Source: Chloroflexota bacterium
Lineage (GTDB): Bacteria; Chloroflexota; Dehalococcoidia; Lucifugimonadales; Australimonadaceae
Length of the DNA stretch: 38,464 bases
NCBI GenBank assembly: GCA_009838965.1
Contig: VXQP01000095.1
Coordinates: 1 to 38,464, forward strand
Reading direction: 5' to 3'
The position numbers and the translations under genes were made by a program. The notes under the pieces were generated by a model. It did not search any database and was not told where the DNA came from. It was given only the letters and a program-made list of their open reading frames with translations. Positions 4,344 to 33,016 of the stretch are shown here, one piece after another. The stretch's first letter is position 1. Each line of letters opens with the position of its first letter.

Positions 4344-7160
4344 ATGGCAGACGAGATCACGATCACGATAGACGGGCAGGAGGTCACGACGACCCCTGGC
4401 ACGATGGTGGTGCAGGCGGCGAACGACGCCGGCATCTACATCCCGTACCTCTGCTATCACCCCGGCATGAAGCCGTACGGCGCGTGCCGCATGTGCGTCG
4501 TCGAGATTGAGGGACAGCGGGGCACGCCCGCATCCTGCACGCTGCCGGTGCGCGACGGCATGGTCGTCAACACGAAGGGCGGCGATGCCGTGCAGGTGCG
4601 GAACACGACGCTCGACCTGCTGCTGTCGGAGCACCCGCACGGATGTCTTACATGCCATCGGATAGACCTCTGCGGCCCGCAGGACATCTGCCTCCGGCAC
4701 GTCGACGTGGTCGACCGGTGCGTGACCTGCCCGAAGAACGAGCGCTGCGAGCTGAAGGACACGACGCGCTTCCACACGCAGGAGCTCGTGTCGCCGCTCA
4801 CGTACCAGTACCGCAACCTGCAGGTGGAGACGAAGGACCCGTTCTACGACCGCGACTACAACCTCTGCATCGTGTGCGCGCGCTGCACGCGGGCGTGCGA
4901 CGAACTGCGGGGCGACGTTGCGATAGGCATGACGGAGCGCGCGGGGCAGGTGCTCGTCGGCACGGTCATGGGCGACTCGCTCCTCGAGTCCGGCTGCGAG
5001 TTCTGCGGCGCCTGCATCGACGTCTGCCCGGTGGGCGCGCTCACCGAGACCGCCTACAAGTGGGAGCGCCCCGCGCGGGTCGAGCAGTCGGTCTGCGCCG
5101 AGTGCCCCGTGGGCTGCACGATGACGTACGAGGTCAACCACTGGGAGCGGGTTGTGCGCGCGGTGCCGGAGCTGAACGCCCCGTCGAACATGGGACAGGC
5201 GTGCTTCAAGGGCAAGTTTGGGTTCGAGTACGTCAACGACAAGCGCCGCATCCGGAAGCCGCTGGTGCGCCGGGACGGCGAGCTGCAGGAGGCCTCGTGG
5301 GACGAGGCCATAGCCGCCGCTGCCGAGGGCTTGGCGCAGCACAGGGGTCCCGCGTTCGCGCTGATGGCGAACCCGCGCAACACGAACGAGGAGCTCTACG
5401 CGGCGCAGAAGTTCGCCCGTGCCGCGATGGGCTCGAACGCCGTCGACGTGGCATCGAACGACCGCCCCGGCATCGTCGAGGGCCTGCAGGACACGTTCGG
5501 CTACTTCGCCGGAACGATGACCACGTGGGAGCTCGCAGACTCCGCCGCCGTGATGGTCGTGAGTGCAAACCTTACTGAAGAACAGAACGTCGTCGGTGTG
5601 CCGATCAAGCGCGCCGTCCGCGCCGGTACGCAGCAGCTCATCGTCATCGATTCACGCGAGGTCGAACTCACGCGCTACGCGTCGCTGTGGCTGAGGCCGT
5701 ACCCCGGCACCGACTCCGTGCTGCTCGGCGGCATGCTGCGCTGCATCGTCGACAACGGGCTGGCGGACATGGAGTTTGTCAACGAACGCGCAGAGGGCTG
5801 GGACGAACTGGTGGCCTGCCTCGAACCGTTCACGCTGGACGCGGTCGCCGCGGAGACCGGCGTGAACGCGGCAAGCATCGAGCAGGCGGCGCGCATCTAC
5901 GCAGAGGCGGCGTCGGCGGCGCTGCTGTTCGGCGGCGACAGCTCGATCGGCGGCACGCGCCGCACGCTCTCGCGGATGGTGGCTGCGCTCGCCGTCGCGA
6001 CGGGGAACGTCGGCAGGCACGGCGCGGGCGTCATGCCGCTGTACCAGGGCGCGAACGCGCAGGGCGCCTTCGACATGGGGGCCTGGGCCGCATCGCTGCC
6101 GGGCCACAACCTGCTGGACGACGCAAGCGCACGCGAGGCTTTCGGCAAGCTCTGGGGCGTTCCCATTCCGGACGAGCGCAACCCGGGCAACCGCAGCATC
6201 TTCACGCGGGCGCGCGATGGCAGCATCAAGGCGATGGTGATGCTGGGCGACCACGTCCACTACGAGGACGGCACGCTCGGCGACGTGATGGGCGGACTCG
6301 ATGCGCTCGAGTTCCTGGTGGCGACGAGCGCGTTCCCGTCCGCGATAACGGAGCGGGCGCACGTCGTCTTCCCCGCCGAGGTGTGGGCCGAGAAGACGGG
6401 CACGTACACCAACATCGAGCGCCGCGTGCAGCCGCTCCGCAAGGTGGCGAAGAACAAGCGCGTCGATTCGCGCAGCGACCTCGACGTGCTCTGCGCGCTC
6501 GCCGCCGCGATGGGCGCGCAGGGGTTCTCGTGGGACGGCCCGGCGCAGGTGCTCGACGAGATAGCGCGGGTCGTACCGGAGTACGCCGGCATCTCGTGGG
6601 AGCGGCTGATGCGGGAGCGGCTGGACATCGTGACGACCCCCAGCGACGAGCCGCAGCCGACGCAGGTGATGTACACGGGCAACGTGCTGACCGGCCTGAA
6701 GTGGCCATGCGCGTCCGAGGACGGGGAGTTGTTCGTCGACCGGTTCCGCCACGGCAAGGCGCGGCTGCAGCCGGTCGCGTGGCACCCGCGTCCCGAGGTC
6801 GACCCGCAGTTCCCGCTCATGCTGGCGCACGGGCGGGTGCTGCTGGAGCTGGGCCGCAAGCCTAACGTGACGGTGGTTGGCAAGCGCAACCGCGTCGAGC
6901 GGGAGGAGCGCTTCGTGCTCAACCCCGTAGACGCCGCTGCCGCCAAACTCGGCGAGGGCGATCCGGCATCGGTGACGACGGCCGACGGCGCCGAGCGGCG
7001 GGGCGTGGTCGCGCTCTTGGACGCCGTGCCCGCGGGCGTGGTGTCGCTGACGACGCTGTTCGGCGAGTTGGCGGTCGAGGTCGACGCGTCGGACCGCCCC
7101 GACCCCATGAACCACATCGCGCGGCTGAACGCCGCGCCGGCCCGTATCACGCCCGTATAG
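4344..7160 (+). CDS. NuoG / formate dehydrogenase alpha-like molybdopterin oxidoreductase
   Basis: A 938-residue iron-sulfur protein of the FdhA/NuoG type. Visible in order are a [2Fe-2S] domain (C37, C48, C51, C65), a His-Cys box (H97, C101, C104, C110), two ferredoxin-type [4Fe-4S] motifs (C175, C178, C181, C185; C218, C221, C224, C228), the molybdopterin-family [4Fe-4S] motif (C251, C254, C258, C287), then the long molybdopterin-binding region and a C-terminal dinucleotide-binding domain near 790-930. In formate dehydrogenases the catalytic Sec or Cys lies just after the NxVD segment. Here that stretch (residues 366-380, VDVASNDRPGIVEG) has no Cys and no in-frame UGA, so formate oxidation is doubtful. 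It is probably the large subunit of a soluble complex with the two preceding proteins. Confidence 0.85.
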   Translation: MADEITITIDGQEVTTTPGTMVVQAANDAGIYIPYLCYHPGMKPYGACRMCVVEIEGQRGTPASCTLPVRDGMVVNTKGGDAVQVRNTTLDLLLSEHPHGCLTCHRIDLCGPQDICLRHVDVVDRCVTCPKNERCELKDTTRFHTQELVSPLTYQYRNLQVETKDPFYDRDYNLCIVCARCTRACDELRGDVAIGMTERAGQVLVGTVMGDSLLESGCEFCGACIDVCPVGALTETAYKWERPARVEQSVCAECPVGCTMTYEVNHWERVVRAVPELNAPSNMGQACFKGKFGFEYVNDKRRIRKPLVRRDGELQEASWDEAIAAAAEGLAQHRGPAFALMANPRNTNEELYAAQKFARAAMGSNAVDVASNDRPGIVEGLQDTFGYFAGTMTTWELADSAAVMVVSANLTEEQNVVGVPIKRAVRAGTQQLIVIDSREVELTRYASLWLRPYPGTDSVLLGGMLRCIVDNGLADMEFVNERAEGWDELVACLEPFTLDAVAAETGVNAASIEQAARIYAEAASAALLFGGDSSIGGTRRTLSRMVAALAVATGNVGRHGAGVMPLYQGANAQGAFDMGAWAASLPGHNLLDDASAREAFGKLWGVPIPDERNPGNRSIFTRARDGSIKAMVMLGDHVHYEDGTLGDVMGGLDALEFLVATSAFPSAITERAHVVFPAEVWAEKTGTYTNIERRVQPLRKVAKNKRVDSRSDLDVLCALAAAMGAQGFSWDGPAQVLDEIARVVPEYAGISWERLMRERLDIVTTPSDEPQPTQVMYTGNVLTGLKWPCASEDGELFVDRFRHGKARLQPVAWHPRPEVDPQFPLMLAHGRVLLELGRKPNVTVVGKRNRVEREERFVLNPVDAAAAKLGEGDPASVTTADGAERRGVVALLDAVPAGVVSLTTLFGELAVEVDASDRPDPMNHIARLNAAPARITPV

Positions 7161-12792: not shown

Positions 12793-12833
12793 AATAGGCC
12801 TTATTGAGACGTGAGCAGCGCGGGAGGTACGCG

Positions 12834-13622
12834 ATGGCGTCAGAGTCGAAGGCCAATGGCAAGGCGGAGATGGGCCTCGCCGAGCGGTTCGCGCTGCATC
12901 CGGAGACGGACGAGCCGGAGGAGTTCCTCGGCGGGCCGTACAACCTCTCGGTGTGGAAGCCGAAGGACGCCGAGCACCGCCAGTTCCAGGAGAACGCGCC
13001 GAGGGCGGGTGAGCCGATGCCGGACTTCACGCTGCCCGTGCTGGACGGCGGCGAACTGACGCTGTCGTCGCTGCGCGGCAAGCCGGTGATGATCGAGTTC
13101 GGCTCCGTCACCTGACCGCCATGCGTGGCGGAGTCTCCGTCCATGGAAGACCTTGCGAGCAGGTATGCGGACGACGCGCACTTCCTGTTCATCTACACGC
13201 GGGAGGCACATCCCGGAGAGTATTACCCGCCCATCCACTACTACGAGCAGAAGGTGCTGCACGCGCGCTCGTTCAGGGAGCGGCTGGGTATAGGGCGCAC
13301 CATCCTCGTGGACTCGGTACAGGGGAAGGTGCACCGGGTGTTCGGGGGCGTGTCGAATATGTCGTGGATCGTCGACCACACGGGGCGCATCGCCTACCGG
13401 GCGGCGTGGACGGTGGCGGACGACATCGAGCGCGCACTCCAAGAGGTGCTGCGAGCTCGGATGCTGAAGCGCGAGGGGCAGTCCGCGGTGGTGTTCTACC
13501 GGGAGATCGTGGGCCTGCGTACGATGCGCGAAGGGCCGCCGGACGGGCTGCCCCGGTACATGGGCGGCGAGGTCGCCGCGCGGCAGTTCGAGGCAGCCCG
13601 CCGCAAGACCGAGCGGGCGTAG
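12834..13622 (+). CDS. Deiodinase-like thioredoxin-fold selenoprotein (UGA at 13113 read as Sec94)
   Basis: The frame is open from 12834 (GGGAGG 6 bases upstream) to 13622 apart from one TGA at 13113-13115. Read as selenocysteine it gives 262 residues. Residues 62-93 (MPDFTLPVLDGGELTLSSL, then VMIEFGSVT) are the start of a thioredoxin/peroxiredoxin fold, and the UGA falls exactly at the active site: G-S-V-T-U94-P-P-C97. Iodothyronine deiodinases have FGSCTUPPF at this place. The sequence after the UGA continues that family's pattern (FLFIYTREAHP matches the deiodinase I-Y-x-E-E-A-H-P), followed by VDHTGRIAYRAAW. Pro-Pro-Cys makes a U-x-x-C redox pair. The likely role is a selenol-dependent reductase or peroxidase; deiodination itself is not implied. 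An FmdB-type gene follows 10 bases later. Confidence 0.88.
13116..13145 (+). promoter_or_regulatory. Candidate bacterial SECIS hairpin of the deiodinase-like gene
   Basis: Just after the UGA, bases 13124-13126 and 13127-13132 pair with 13143-13145 and 13136-13141 (one bulged C at 13142). This gives about nine base pairs closed by the 3-base loop GUC at 13133-13135. The loop starts 17 bases after the UGA and begins with G, as expected for a SelB-binding bacterial SECIS. A competing hairpin CCGCC/GGCGG (13116-13120 with 13127-13131) is possible. Paired by eye. Confidence 0.65.
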
Positions 13623-22571: not shown

Positions 22572-22601
22572 TTGACACTCAGGCGTGAGAGGATCGACAA
22601 T
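22572..22601 (+). promoter_or_regulatory. Probable sigma70-type promoter of the His/Cys-rich gene
   Basis: A perfect TTGACA at 22572-22577 and GACAAT at 22596-22601 (4 of 6), with an 18-base spacer, lie 49 bases before the start at 22651. This is the best -35 box noticed in the window. Confidence 0.55.
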
Positions 22602-22650
22602 TCTCGTAGACCCGCGGCCGATCCGGGAACGAAGCACCCAGGGGGGTAAG

Positions 22651-22914
22651 ATGACCACTCACGTTCACGAGCATGACCACAGCGAAGCGGCCGACCACTG
22701 CCACGAGCATGAAGGCGAGCACTGTCACAACCATGGCGACGTGCACTGCCACGAGCACGGCGCAGGCCACTGCCACATCCACGGCGACGAGGCCTGCGTG
22801 GCCCTCGGCGGGAGCGAGCAGTTCGACGAGCACGGCGCCGAGCACTGCCACGAGCATGGCGAGGAGCACTGCGCGGACGCGGACGATCCGCACCACGCAC
22901 CCCACGCAGCGTAG
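22651..22914 (+). CDS. His/Cys octarepeat protein, probable metal-binding
   Basis: An 87-residue protein with 24 His and 7 Cys by my count, no signal peptide and no membrane span. Its core is a tandem eight-residue unit of the form H-C-H-x-H-G-x-x (HCHEHEGE, HCHNHGDV, HCHEHGAG, HCHIHGDE). A short spacer (ACVALGGSEQFDE) is followed by one more unit and a His-rich tail. Such composition suits binding of zinc, copper or nickel in the cytoplasm, as storage or buffer. I know no named family for it. GGGGGG and a strong promoter precede the ATG. The Sec-containing rhodanese starts 97 bases downstream. Confidence 0.75.
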   Translation: MTTHVHEHDHSEAADHCHEHEGEHCHNHGDVHCHEHGAGHCHIHGDEACVALGGSEQFDEHGAEHCHEHGEEHCADADDPHHAPHAA

Positions 22915-23011: not shown

Positions 23012-23833
23012 ATGGCTGACTACCCACGGAACGACCTGCTCGTCGAGACCGACTGGCTCGCCGAGCACCTGACGGACCCGAACGTACGCGTCATCGAGAT
23101 GGCGGAGGACGGCAGCGGCTTCGAGGCCGGGCACATCCCCGGCGCGGCGCTCTCGCCGACGTGGCAGGTCAAGGGCTCGGAGCACAAGCGGCTCGTCGCG
23201 CCGCCGGATGAGGCGAAGGCGTGGTTCGAGTCCGTAGGCGTTGGCGACGACACGCTCGTCGTGGGGTACGACCGCTTCCGCAGCCGTGACGCGTCACGCC
23301 TCTGGTGGGTGCTGAACTACTACGGCCACACGAACGTCCGAGTCCTGAACGGCGGATGGACGAAGTGGACCGCAGAGGGGCGCGATGTCGAGACCGGCCC
23401 GTCGCAGGTCGCCGGCGGCGGTGTGACGTTCACCCCCCAACCCAACCATGCCGTTGAATCGACCGTGGAGAAGCTCAAGGCGGCCATCGGCGCCGGCGAT
23501 ACCGTCATCTGGGACGTGCGAACAGAAGCCGAGTACACGGGCGAGAACTCGCGCGGCAACGCGCGGGTAGGGCACGTGCCCGGCGCGGCGTTCCTGGAGT
23601 GGGTGAACCTCGTGGAGGAGGACGACACGTTCAAGTCCGCAGAGGAGATCGAGGAGATAGCGCGCGGTCTCGGCATCACGCCGGAGAAGACGGTCCACAT
23701 CTACTGACAGGGCGGGGTGCGTGCGTCGCACGCCATGGTCGCCCTCAAGCTCATCGGCCACGAGTCCGTCTGCATGTACGACGGCTCGATGGGCGAATGG
23801 GCGAACCGCGACGACACCCCGCTGGAGGTGTAG
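23012..23833 (+). CDS. Rhodanese-type sulfurtransferase with catalytic selenocysteine (UGA at 23705, Sec232)
   Basis: A two-domain thiosulfate sulfurtransferase-like protein. The frame starts at 23012 (GGAGG 6 bases upstream) and is open to 23833 except for TGA at 23705-23707. The N-terminal domain (about 10-125) has the usual inactive YDRFRSRDASRLWW loop. The C-terminal domain starts near 150 and has WDVRTEAEYTG and GHVPGA. The catalytic loop of this family is C-Q-G-G-V-R; here it is V-H-I-Y-U232-Q-G-G-V-R, with UGA precisely at the sulfur-accepting Cys. After it ASHAMVALKLIGHESVCMYD and GSMGEWANR complete the domain. Read as Sec it is 273 residues, normal for the family. The selenium residue would carry the transferred sulfur (or selenium). 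A SECIS-like hairpin follows. Confidence 0.88.
23708..23734 (+). promoter_or_regulatory. Candidate bacterial SECIS hairpin of the rhodanese gene
   Basis: GTGCG (23717-23721) pairs perfectly with CGCAC (23727-23731) around the loop UGCGU, and GGC (23711-23713) pairs with GCC (23732-23734) with GGG bulged. A register-shifted alternative, GCGTG/CACGC (23719-23723 with 23729-23733), has loop CGUCG starting 16 bases after the UGA. Both loops have G in the second position, as in known bacterial SECIS elements. Paired by eye. Confidence 0.6.
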
Positions 23834-28359: not shown

Positions 28360-28863
28360 TCACTCCGCCGGGATCGACAACCCCTCGACGAACTCCAGAC
28401 CCGGCAGTTTCTCCAGCTCCCGGGGCGCCATCTTCAGCTTGCCGGACCGGCTGCCCGCTCCAAGGATGATGTAGTCCATCTCCAGCAGGCGCACGTCGGC
28501 GTAGACCGGCAACCCCTCCGGCAGCGCCAGTGCCGTAACCCCGCCGATCATCATCCCCGTCACTTCACGGGTCTGCTCCGCCGATGCGAACGACGCCCGC
28601 GACACTCCCATCAGCCCGCGCACCCGCTTGTTCACGTCCAGCCGGTCGCACGCCCGCACGATCCCCGCGCAATACGCCGCCGGTCCCCGCTTGCCGGCAA
28701 CGACGATCGTATTGGCGGAATGGGGCAGGTCGTACCCGTACTGTTCGCAGAAGTCCGCGGTGTCGGAGTACTGCGGGTCGATCTCGATCCACTCCCACCC
28801 CGCGATGCCCAACGCGTCCAGCGCCGCCCGCACTCGCCCTTCGATCTCTTCAGGTGTACTCAT
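28360..28863 (-). CDS. YbaK/EbsC (prolyl-tRNA editing) family protein
   Basis: A 167-residue single-domain protein of the YbaK/aminoacyl-tRNA deacylase fold, which hydrolyses mischarged tRNAs such as Cys- or Ala-tRNA-Pro. The signatures are ANTIVVAGKRGPAAYCAGIV in the middle, then RLDVNKRVRGLMGVSRASFA, MMIGGVTALALPEGLPVY and the closing LLEMDYIILGAGSRSGKLKM. Which tRNA it edits is not determined. It is transcribed away from the hopanoid genes and shares a 100-base upstream region with hpnH. Confidence 0.85.
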   Translation of the reverse strand: MSTPEEIEGRVRAALDALGIAGWEWIEIDPQYSDTADFCEQYGYDLPHSANTIVVAGKRGPAAYCAGIVRACDRLDVNKRVRGLMGVSRASFASAEQTREVTGMMIGGVTALALPEGLPVYADVRLLEMDYIILGAGSRSGKLKMAPRELEKLPGLEFVEGLSIPAE

Positions 28864-28963
28864 GGTGTTGTCTCTCCTGGCGATTCTACAATCGCGGCGC
28901 ACAGCCCCAAGGGAGTGGTCTGGTAGACTCTCCCACAACCGGACTGTAGGGAGCGCAACCGCA

Positions 28964-29986
28964 ATGGGAGTGCCTGCCTCACAGGCGTGGACAGTAGCAT
29001 CCCACGTGATCAAGCAACGTCTGGCGGGACGCGAACGCTATCCGCTCGTGCTCATGCTGGAGCCGCTGCTGCGCTGCAACCTCGCGTGCGCGGGGTGCGG
29101 GAAGATCCAGTACCCGCCCCACGTGCTCAAACGCGCTCTGACCGTCGAGCAGTGCCTTGCTGCAGTCGAGGAGTGCGGCGCCCCCATCGTCAGCATCCCC
29201 GGCGGCGAGCCGCTGCTCTATCCCCACATCGGTGAACTGGTGGAGGAGCTGACGCGCCGCAAGAAGTACGTGTACCTCTGCACCAATGCGCTGCTGCTCA
29301 AGGAGAAGCTGGAGCAGAACGTCTTCACTCCCTCGAAGCGCCTCAGCTTCAGCGTCCACATGGACGGCCTGCGCGAGGAGCACGACGCTTCCGTCTGCCG
29401 CGACGGGGTGTACGACATCGCCGTCGATGCGATACGGGAAGCCGTCCGGCGTGGGTTCCGTGTCACCACCAACACGACGCTGTTCAACACGTCCGAGCCG
29501 ATGCGCGTCCGCGACTTCTTCGACGCGATGATGGACCTGGACGTCGAGGGCATGATGGTGTCGCCGGGGTACAGCTACGAGAAAGCCCCGGACCAGGAGT
29601 CGTTCCTGGAGCGCGAACGGACGCAGGAGCTCTTCTCCAACATCCTCACGGGAAGGAAGAAGCGCTGGCGGTTCAACCAGTCGCCGCTGTTCCTCCAGTT
29701 CCTCATGGGCAAGCGCGATTTCGAATGCACACCGTGGGGCAACCCGCTCTACACGATCTTCGGATGGCAGCGCCCCTGCTACCTGCTGCAGGACGGTTAC
29801 GCCGCCACTTTCCGGGAGCTGATGGACGAGACGCCCTGGGAAGAGTACGGGCGGCAGAGCGGCAACCCGCACTGCCAGGACTGCATGGTGCACTCCGGCT
29901 ACGAACCTACCGCCGTCCATGCGACGTTCACTACGTGGCGCGGTCTGCGCGACTCCGCCGTCGCCACAATCACCGGCAAGCTGTGA
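28964..29986 (+). CDS. hpnH: Adenosylhopane synthase, radical SAM protein HpnH
   Basis: Joins adenosine from S-adenosylmethionine to diploptene, making adenosylhopane, the first step towards side-chain extended hopanoids. The 340 residues show the radical-SAM cluster ligands in LRCNLACAGCGK (C38, C42, C45), the SAM-binding GGEPLL near 90, and the HpnH-typical segments VYLCTNALLLKEKL, RLSFSVHMDGLREEHD and VEGMMVSPGYSYEKAPDQ, plus the C-terminal region with FECTPWGNPLYT, YLLQDGYA and NPHCQDCMVHSGYEPT. Start ATG at 28964; the frame upstream has no homology. It leads a run of four plus-strand genes ending with the squalene-hopene cyclase gene. Confidence 0.93.
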   Translation: MGVPASQAWTVASHVIKQRLAGRERYPLVLMLEPLLRCNLACAGCGKIQYPPHVLKRALTVEQCLAAVEECGAPIVSIPGGEPLLYPHIGELVEELTRRKKYVYLCTNALLLKEKLEQNVFTPSKRLSFSVHMDGLREEHDASVCRDGVYDIAVDAIREAVRRGFRVTTNTTLFNTSEPMRVRDFFDAMMDLDVEGMMVSPGYSYEKAPDQESFLERERTQELFSNILTGRKKRWRFNQSPLFLQFLMGKRDFECTPWGNPLYTIFGWQRPCYLLQDGYAATFRELMDETPWEEYGRQSGNPHCQDCMVHSGYEPTAVHATFTTWRGLRDSAVATITGKL

Positions 29987-30045
29987 GCCATGTTCGAGCA
30001 CGAGACAGAGCGACCGGTGCTGCACACCAGGGAGACGCTGACGGC

Positions 30046-30321
30046 GTGGCCGGACTCGTCGAGCGCGCCTTCCAGTATCGCGGCGACGTGACTGTGCACA
30101 CCGACGACGGCGGCACTGTGACGGGCTATCTCTTCAACCGGGATACGCGTGCAAGCGAACCGTTCGTCCAGCTGTTCGAGACGCAGACCGGACGCGAGGT
30201 ATCGGTCCCGTACCGCAGCATCGCCGACGTGCTCTTCACCGGGCGTGATGCCGCTGCCGCGGCGGACCAGCGTTTCGAGGCCCTGCAGACCCGTTCGGGA
30301 ACGGAACGCCATGGAGACTGA
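30046..30321 (+). CDS. Small unknown protein between hpnH and hpnG-like genes
   Basis: A 91-residue frame from a GTG (AGGGAG lies 11 bases upstream). It reads VAGLVERAFQYRGDVTVHTD and then GTVTGYLFNRD, followed by FETQTGREVSVPYRSIADVLF, suggesting a small beta-barrel (possibly Sm- or SH3-like) with a short C-terminal helix. I know no named family. The end overlaps the start of the hpnG-like gene by 11 bases. An ATG at 29990, 3 bases after the hpnH stop, opens a different frame (MFEHETERPVLHTRETL) that would join smoothly to this one after a single-base shift near 30040, so the gene may be longer with a sequencing or real frameshift. Position implies a hopanoid-linked role. Confidence 0.6.
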   Translation: MAGLVERAFQYRGDVTVHTDDGGTVTGYLFNRDTRASEPFVQLFETQTGREVSVPYRSIADVLFTGRDAAAAADQRFEALQTRSGTERHGD

Positions 30322-31009
30322 GACCACGCCGGCCCCGCTCCTGACCATCGCCCCCACCCAGCGGGAGTTGGGAGGGCTGGGCTACGGCGATGCCCGCACG
30401 CGTACAAGCCTCGTGGGTATCGGACGCGTCGCGGGAGAGCAGGTCGCAGCTCTCCTGGACGCCGCGCCGTGCCGGCTGCTGGTCTCGCTGGGATACGCAG
30501 GCGCGCTCGATCCCCACCTCCATCCCGGCGACCTCGTTGTGGCGAACGCCTACCTCCACGGAGCAAGCGCACCGGTCCCCGGCGCTCTCCACACGACCCG
30601 TGCAGCGATGCTGCTGCGGCAGGCCGGCATCTCCGCCCTCGAAGGGCCGGTGCTGACCGTGGACGAACCGCTCCTCTCGCCCCGGGCCAAGCGCAGAGCG
30701 TTCTACGGCAGCGGTGCGCTGGTGGTCGACATGGAAGGACGCTGGATCGCGGAAGAGGCAACATCGAGAGGCGTCCCGCTCATCGGCATCCGCGCAGTGC
30801 TCGACGAGGCCCACTATCCGCTGCCTTCCTTCATCGCGACCATCGTCGCGGATGCCGGGCGGCGGGAGTGGGCTCACGCCGTGCGGGCGCTGTCGCACCC
30901 TTCAGCGGCCAGGAGCTTCCTTCCGCTGGCGTTGAAGTCGCGGGGAGCGTCGCGCGCCTTGCAGACGGCCGTGCAGAGCATCCTTCCGGAGCTCGCTCGT
31001 CAGCTCTGA
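30311..31009 (+). CDS. hpnG: Hopanoid-associated nucleoside phosphorylase, HpnG-like
   Basis: A 232-residue member of the purine nucleoside phosphorylase/MTA-SAH nucleosidase fold. In hopanoid clusters HpnG removes adenine from adenosylhopane, leaving phosphoribosylhopane. Visible features are LLVSLGYAGALDPHLHPGDLVVAN (about 57-80), the usual beta strand and phosphate loop region, and VVDMEGRWIAEEA with D140-M141-E142, which matches the family's ribose-binding VxDMExxA. Sequence identity to characterised HpnG was not tested; the call rests on fold motifs plus position between hpnH and shc. Confidence 0.78.
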   Translation: METETTPAPLLTIAPTQRELGGLGYGDARTRTSLVGIGRVAGEQVAALLDAAPCRLLVSLGYAGALDPHLHPGDLVVANAYLHGASAPVPGALHTTRAAMLLRQAGISALEGPVLTVDEPLLSPRAKRRAFYGSGALVVDMEGRWIAEEATSRGVPLIGIRAVLDEAHYPLPSFIATIVADAGRREWAHAVRALSHPSAARSFLPLALKSRGASRALQTAVQSILPELARQL

Positions 31010-31018
31010 GCCGGACCG

Positions 31019-33016
31019 ATGCCGAACCTGGTCGAACAAGGCATGAAGAGCCGCCTCCGCAAAGCGATGAAGCGGACGCAGGACTACTTCTTCCGTACGC
31101 AGCACGAGGACGGCTACTGGTGGGGGGAGCTGGAGTCCAACCCGACCATGGAGGCGGAGTACATCATGCTCACGCACTTCATGGGGTCGGACGAGGGCGA
31201 CCGCATCCCCCGCGTCGCGGAAGACATCCGGCGCAGGCAGTCCGAAGACGGCTCCTGGCGTATGTACTACGGCGCGCCGGGAGACCTGAGCACGTCCATC
31301 GAGTGCTACTTCGCGCTCAAACTCGCCGGCGACCCCACCGATGCTCCCCACATGGCGCGGGCGCGCGCCTTCATCCTGGCGCAGGGCGGGGTGCCCCGGG
31401 CGCGCGTATTCACCAAGATATGGCTCGCCCTCTTCGGTCAGTGGGACTGGAAGGGAACGCCGGCCATGCCTCCGGACATGATGCTGCTGCCGAAGTGGGC
31501 GCCCTTCAACATCTACCGCTTCGCGAGCTGGGCGCGCGCGACCATCGTGCCGATGACCATCATCCTCACGCTTCATCCCACGCGGCCGCCGCGCGAGAGC
31601 GCATGGGTCATGGAGCTCTATCCGGAAGGCCCCGTCACGTTCACGCTGTCGCGCTGGAGGGCGAAGCCCTTCTCCCTCAAGGGAGGATTCCTGCTCCTGG
31701 ACAAGGCGCTCCGCGTCTACTGCAATCTGCCGTTCGTCCCCAGGCGGGAGCGGGCGCTCAAGGCCGCCGTCGACTGGATCGTCAGCCACCAGGAGGCCGA
31801 CGGTTCGTGGGGAGGCATACAACCGCCCTGGGTCTACTCGCTCATCGCACTGAGCACCCTAGGGTACCGGCTGGACCACCCGGTCGTCGCGAAGGGGCTG
31901 GAGGGCTTCAGGCAGCACTGGAGCCTCCCATCGGAAGATGGCCGGGCGCTCAGGGTGCAAGCGTGTCTCTCGCCCGCGTGGGATACGTGCCTGGCGATGC
32001 GCGGACTCCTCGACTCAGGCGTTCCGCCCGATCATCCCGCCGTCCGGCGCGCCGCGGCCTGGCTCATCCGCGAGGAGATACGGGTCAAAGGCGACTGGGC
32101 CGTCTACCGGCCTCATCTCGAACCCAGCGGATGGGCGTTCGAGTTCGACAACGTCCACTATCCGGACATCGACGACTCAGCCATCATCGTGACCGACCTC
32201 GCGCTCGCGCGGATGAACGACGACGCAGGCGAACGGGCTAGGGCGGCATCCGTCGACCGTGCTGTCGCGTGGCTGACGGGCATGCAGGGTTCGGGTGGGG
32301 GATGGGCCGCGTTCGACTGGAACAACGAGTCCCGCGAGCTGGCGGAGATCCCGTTCGCCGACTTCGGCGAGCTCCTGGACCCGCCCAGTGTGGACGTCAC
32401 CGCGCACGTGCTGGAGATGTACGGGATGCTGGGGTACGGGATGGACCATCCGCCCGTACGTCGGGGTCTGGCATACATATGGGACCAGCAGGAGCACGAC
32501 GGCGCGTGGTTTGGACGCTGGGGCGTGAACTACGTCTACGGCACCGGTGCGGTGCTGCCCGCTCTGCAAGCGCTGGGGGTGGACATGACGCAGCCCCGCG
32601 TGCGCCGTGCGGTCGAATGGCTCCTCGCGCACCAGAACCCGGACGGCGGATGGGGAGAGACCTGCGTCAGCTACCCGGACCCGTCGCTGCGCGGGCAGGG
32701 CGAGAGCACGCCCTCGCAGACGTCATGGGCGCTCATCGCGCTCATCGCGGCGGGTGAAGCGCTCAGCGAGCCCGTCCGGAGAGGCGTCGAGTTCCTCCTT
32801 CAGCGCCAGCAGGACGACGGAACGTGGGACGAGCCGCAGTTCACGGGGTGCGGCTTCCCCGGCTACGGTCCTGGCAACCAGCCCGAGAGGTACGAACCGC
32901 TCGACGACCCGAACTCGCAGGGGCCCGAACTGAGTGCTGCGTTCATGATCAACTACCACCTGTATCGCAACTACTTCCCGCTCTGGGCGCTGGGGCGGTA
33001 CGCGCAGGCGCTTTAG
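31019..33016 (+). CDS. shc: Squalene-hopene cyclase
   Basis: Cyclises squalene to hopene/hopanol on the cytoplasmic membrane. The 665 residues fit the family. The catalytic acid motif, usually D-x-D-D-T-A, is D383-I-D385-D386-S-A here. Repeated QW-type motifs are seen, such as RRQSEDGSWRMYY, QEADGSWGG, GSGGGWAAFDW, QEHDGAWFGRWG, NPDGGWGE and QQDDGTWDE. The C-terminal segment GCGFPGYGPGNQPERY is like the usual TGFPG region, and FMINYHLYRNYFPLWALGRY ends the protein as in other cyclases. It lies 9 bases after the hpnG-like gene. No squalene synthase (hpnCDE) lies in the window. Confidence 0.95.
   Translation: MPNLVEQGMKSRLRKAMKRTQDYFFRTQHEDGYWWGELESNPTMEAEYIMLTHFMGSDEGDRIPRVAEDIRRRQSEDGSWRMYYGAPGDLSTSIECYFALKLAGDPTDAPHMARARAFILAQGGVPRARVFTKIWLALFGQWDWKGTPAMPPDMMLLPKWAPFNIYRFASWARATIVPMTIILTLHPTRPPRESAWVMELYPEGPVTFTLSRWRAKPFSLKGGFLLLDKALRVYCNLPFVPRRERALKAAVDWIVSHQEADGSWGGIQPPWVYSLIALSTLGYRLDHPVVAKGLEGFRQHWSLPSEDGRALRVQACLSPAWDTCLAMRGLLDSGVPPDHPAVRRAAAWLIREEIRVKGDWAVYRPHLEPSGWAFEFDNVHYPDIDDSAIIVTDLALARMNDDAGERARAASVDRAVAWLTGMQGSGGGWAAFDWNNESRELAEIPFADFGELLDPPSVDVTAHVLEMYGMLGYGMDHPPVRRGLAYIWDQQEHDGAWFGRWGVNYVYGTGAVLPALQALGVDMTQPRVRRAVEWLLAHQNPDGGWGETCVSYPDPSLRGQGESTPSQTSWALIALIAAGEALSEPVRRGVEFLLQRQQDDGTWDEPQFTGCGFPGYGPGNQPERYEPLDDPNSQGPELSAAFMINYHLYRNYFPLWALGRYAQAL

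Follow-up and report, generated by a model that had tools for sequence, protein, structure and literature searches.

Selenocysteine-containing sulfurtransferases of the COG2897 (SseA) type were reported in 2005 from the Sargasso Sea as three sequences with predicted SECIS elements (Zhang, Fomenko, Gladyshev; PMC1088965). Further members are on record as eight Sec sequences under cd01449 in GOS (PMC2398784), as the COG2897 selenoprotein entry MQG53192.1 in a 2022 review (PMC9312934) and as "Rhodanese-like form 4, UxxG" in the catalogue of a 2026 review (PMC13188914). Thus, a Sec rhodanese is not new in kind, the family having been known since 2005. What has been published consists of metagenomic fragments or of lines in catalogues, whereas the gene considered here, which lies in a 38,464-nucleotide stretch of a Chloroflexota genome (the window), can be placed in the context of its genome, that genome's selenocysteine machinery and its distribution among relatives. 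It shares with the published sequences the COG type, the replacement of Cys by Sec, the UxxG motif and a bacterial SECIS directly downstream. With two rhodanese domains, Sec at the C-terminal catalytic position and UQGG as its form of UxxG, it fits the Sec COG2897 family, to which it can be assigned by predicted architecture and motif. Other rhodanese-domain selenoproteins, namely NF041203 (rhodanese_LYCAU, rhodanese-related (seleno)protein) and Rhodanese-like forms 1–3 and 5, belong to different subfamilies distinguished by CxU, UxxS or a fusion; membership of NF041203 was rejected, since the window protein, at 37.6 bits, falls short of the model's cut-off of 115. What is added here is the Dehalococcoidia/SAR202-type Chloroflexota lineage, the order-wide spread, the repeated Sec/Cys exchange and a SECIS that covaries. 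A literature search found no paper joining selenoproteins with SAR202 and, judged by title, none on such a gene among the three found that pair selenocysteine with mercaptopyruvate sulfurtransferase.

Under the standard code, the open reading frame on the forward strand spans 23012–23707 and is closed by a TGA at 23705–23707. If this TGA is read as Sec, the frame (23012–23833) yields a two-domain rhodanese, i.e., a thiosulfate (or mercaptopyruvate) sulfurtransferase, of 273 residues that stops at a TAG (23831–23833), with Sec232 set within VHIY-U-QGGVRASHAMV. The initial annotation had proposed that UGA replaces the catalytic Cys of the C-terminal rhodanese loop (UQGGVR), and the TGA was confirmed at precisely that column. 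It was also right that the residues past the UGA complete the domain up to the TAG, though they number 41 (QGGVRASH...GHESVCMYDGSMGEWANRDDTPLEV, codons 23708–23830) rather than 42. A GGAGG just 5' of the ATG is a likely ribosome-binding site. The Pfam rhodanese profile PF00581 matches in two stretches (112 bits); the N-terminal domain is without Cys, and C254, conserved in the close family only, is the sole Cys of the protein, which matches no second locus in this genome. Taking together the lines of sequence evidence set out below, we put the probability that this gene encodes a selenoprotein rhodanese at about 0.95.

An AlphaFold2 model with Cys put in place of Sec has a mean pLDDT of 96.4, and its closest solved folds are thiosulfate sulfurtransferases—Mycobacterium tuberculosis CysA2/CysA3 (3hwi, 3aay), Thermus thermophilus rhodanese (1uar) and Azotobacter vinelandii RhdA (1e0c)—with TM scores of 0.87–0.90 and 29–36 % identity. 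All have the same tandem rhodanese fold but use Cys where the window protein has Sec; in 1uar and 3hwi, moreover, the loop is C-R-I-A/G-E-R as against UQGGVR. In RhdA, the catalytic Cys is the only one (PMC9369223). In the explanation favored here, the gene is that of a genuine selenoprotein: the UGA is decoded by SelB, Sec-tRNA and the downstream hairpin to give a tandem-domain rhodanese of the COG2897/SseA type in which Sec serves as the catalytic chalcogen. By the most likely mechanism, the Sec232 selenolate in the UQGGVR loop would attack a donor of sulfane sulfur (thiosulfate, polysulfide, glutathione persulfide or 3-mercaptopyruvate). The sulfur, carried as a selenenyl-sulfide (Enz-Se-S-), would then be passed on to a thiol outside the protein or to another acceptor. 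Since the family conserves no second Cys, release of the sulfur would probably be intermolecular. The loop of E. coli-type mercaptopyruvate sulfurtransferases is CGSGVT, from which UQGGVR differs, and the window protein reaches only 123.2 bits against the NCBI cut-off of 250 for the SseA equivalog NF008557, on which membership was rejected; in view of both observations, 3-mercaptopyruvate is only one of the candidate donors. We infer that the Sec232 enzyme most likely carries sulfane sulfur by way of an Enz-Se-S- intermediate, between a putative donor and a putative acceptor, and the selenosulfide chemistry suggested in the initial annotation is thus a reasonable proposal. Sulfurtransferase chemistry as such appears probable, the functional diversity of rhodanese homologues counting against it.

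Less probable, but with several observations in its favor, is the reading that the protein is chiefly a redox or selenium-handling enzyme instead of a sulfane-sulfur transferase, which might reduce peroxide or polysulfide or deliver selenium to SelD in a perselenide-like form. The prevailing view is that selenoproteins are mostly redox enzymes (PMC9312934), and this genome makes selenophosphate by means of SelD. Rhodanese, including Azotobacter RhdA, binds selenium 1:1 as a perselenide, and a role for it in making selenophosphate has been proposed (PMC9369223); because of this binding, the selenium-handling variant is kept open, and the suggestion of the initial annotation that the Sec rhodanese could handle selenium itself is possible, though no more than that. 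This reading is at odds with the lack of a conserved resolving Cys (C254 having the narrow distribution noted above), with a neighborhood of transporters, a SIMPL protein and a signal peptidase devoid of sel genes, and with the ordinary rhodanese loop that is conserved in the Cys homologues. More doubtful still is the notion of a selenium-dependent carrier with a chemistry unseen in Cys rhodaneses, serving the cell as its principal tandem-domain rhodanese in this chloroflexote order—e.g., a catalytic selenenyl-sulfide/perselenide carrier that connects the metabolism of selenium with that of sulfane sulfur, or else an enzyme reducing polysulfide or peroxide.

Upstream of the Sec rhodanese lie genes for MFS transporters, and those that follow it downstream encode SIMPL and the signal peptidase. 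Across the nine neighborhoods examined, this order is common to G003, G005, G008 and G013 only and is absent from the five other genomes, and no functional link to the Sec rhodanese emerged from it. Also upstream, at 22585–22914 (+), lies a small protein extremely rich in His, along with Cys, Asp and Glu (HEHDHSEAADHCHEHEGEHCHNHGD...), which has no Pfam or NCBIfam match and is perhaps metal-binding; it recurs ahead of the rhodanese gene in G003 and G005 and was not seen in G008 or G013. Elsewhere in the window, 12804–13622 (+) presents a second selenoprotein, a deiodinase/AhpC-TSA-like protein with U-P-P-C (Sec104), whose TGA (13113–13115) is directly followed by the start of a 6-bp hairpin; one TGA is likewise found in its close relatives of the genus, family and order. 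Adjoining hopanoid genes for an HpnH radical SAM protein, an HpnG-like phosphorylase and a squalene-hopene cyclase occupy 28628–33016 (+).

Of 59 genomes searched for homologues, 55 gave a match. In each of the 14 same-family relatives among these, the best match (41–93 % identity) contains a single in-frame TGA, with the similarity carrying on beyond it; many order-level homologues also have the TGA, while others have Cys there. The named relatives that carry homologues are Dehalococcoidia/Chloroflexi metagenome bins; L098, which comes from a SAR202 bin, has the Cys form. At the 47 loci read directly, the catalytic column is TGA or TGC/TGT, and it is invariantly Sec or Cys in 42 aligned proteins. 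The Cys homologues for which the initial annotation had advised a search do exist, with their Cys in the same column as the TGA; homologues ending at this position, which would have spoken against Sec, did not turn up, as the homologues run on past it and have either TGA or a Cys codon in that column. A quickly built tree with 58 Sec and 25 Cys proteins (83 in all) implies at least eight changes of state; since it is rooted at the midpoint and many of its deep forks are open, no direction is claimed for the exchange. Two Sec forms from groundwater Chloroflexi, L095 and L109 (near 5660–5700), sit in a region of the tree where the other proteins have Cys; they read UQTGQRSS, and the sequence following it lacks the usual SECIS helix. 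Within the genus, differences at codon positions 1/2/3 amount to 5.5/3.8/21.3 % after the TGA and 10.2/8.7/31.0 % in the alignment before it; judged from this pattern, the codons past the TGA are under strong purifying selection.

The initial annotation had further noted a hairpin with a G in its loop after the UGA, and one with the loop GUC (23725–23727), G first, is found at 23718–23734 (+), pairing 23718–23724 with 23728–23734 at a UGA-to-loop spacing of 17 nt. Its outermost pair fails in this genome, and single-sequence folding (z of -1.0 to -1.5) does not distinguish it from shuffles. The evidence for it comes from comparison: in a gap-free alignment of 36 sequences, 93.7 % of the cells of the seven-pair helix are paired, and four pairs are altered on both sides, in 16 such cells. 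Columns 15–29, for example, are CG in 25 sequences, GC in 10 and AU in 1, and columns 19–25 are GC in 34 and UA in 2. The covariation score was matched by 0 of 500 shuffles, and the pairing is lost when the partner is slid. The six inner pairs are complete in 57 of the 63 Sec genes and in 0 of the 31 Cys genes, although the sequences are related and these counts are not independent events. Among the Sec genes, the helix is one pair short in L088, L097 and L103 and more pairs short in L074, L095 and L109. The codon usage agrees: the codons for Arg-Ala-Ala/Ser-His are CGTGCG(G/T)CGCAC in 54 of 56 Sec genes, and in the 12 Cys genes with the same residues they are all different. A bacterial SECIS is expected to be a stem-loop that directly follows the UGA and whose small apical loop contains a guanosine (PMC1088965); as every Sec gene has a GGC or GTC loop, that guanosine is present throughout. 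As far as sequence comparison can speak, the support for this SECIS is decisive.

The genome also encodes the full apparatus expected of a bacterium that makes selenoproteins: a tRNA-Sec with anticodon UCA (G000:C63:24247-24340, 69.9 bits), SelB (on G000:C19, 339 bits), SelA (on G000:C28, 523.8 bits) and SelD (L068, G000:C46:37313-38233, 386.5 bits). The SelD gene contains an in-frame TGA of its own, so that this selenophosphate synthetase, too, is probably a selenoprotein. Together with the in-frame UGA aligned to a conserved Cys/Sec column, the SECIS with its loop guanosine directly after that UGA and the selection beyond it, this apparatus bears out the central proposal of the initial annotation, i.e., Sec for the catalytic Cys in a COG2897 rhodanese, and makes it nearly certain that UGA 23705–23707 codes for Sec. 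A reading of the TGA as Cys or Trp instead, whether by an altered genetic code or by a suppressor tRNA, would accord with the Cys of homologues in that column; it is nonetheless highly improbable, as the hairpin is specific to the TGA forms, the tRNA-Sec, SelA, SelB and SelD are canonical, and 7 of 18 other window genes stop at TGA, which indicates that the code is unchanged and TGA not reassigned. A sequencing error or true stop, which would make the gene a truncated rhodanese or pseudogene as the standard-code ending at the TGA might suggest, has a negligible chance and was rejected, being refuted by the identical TGA in independent assemblies of many species and contradicted by the purifying selection beyond it, the covarying SECIS and the complete Sec machinery.

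These observations have a practical consequence in that standard-code annotation truncates the gene at its active site, losing both the catalytic residue and everything that follows it in the domain. More generally, a rhodanese with Sec in its active site makes one ask why a cell should bear the cost of selenium in order to carry sulfane sulfur. The spread of the gene across the order, combined with the repeated exchange of Sec and Cys, provides natural matched pairs in which the benefit of selenium can be put to the test.
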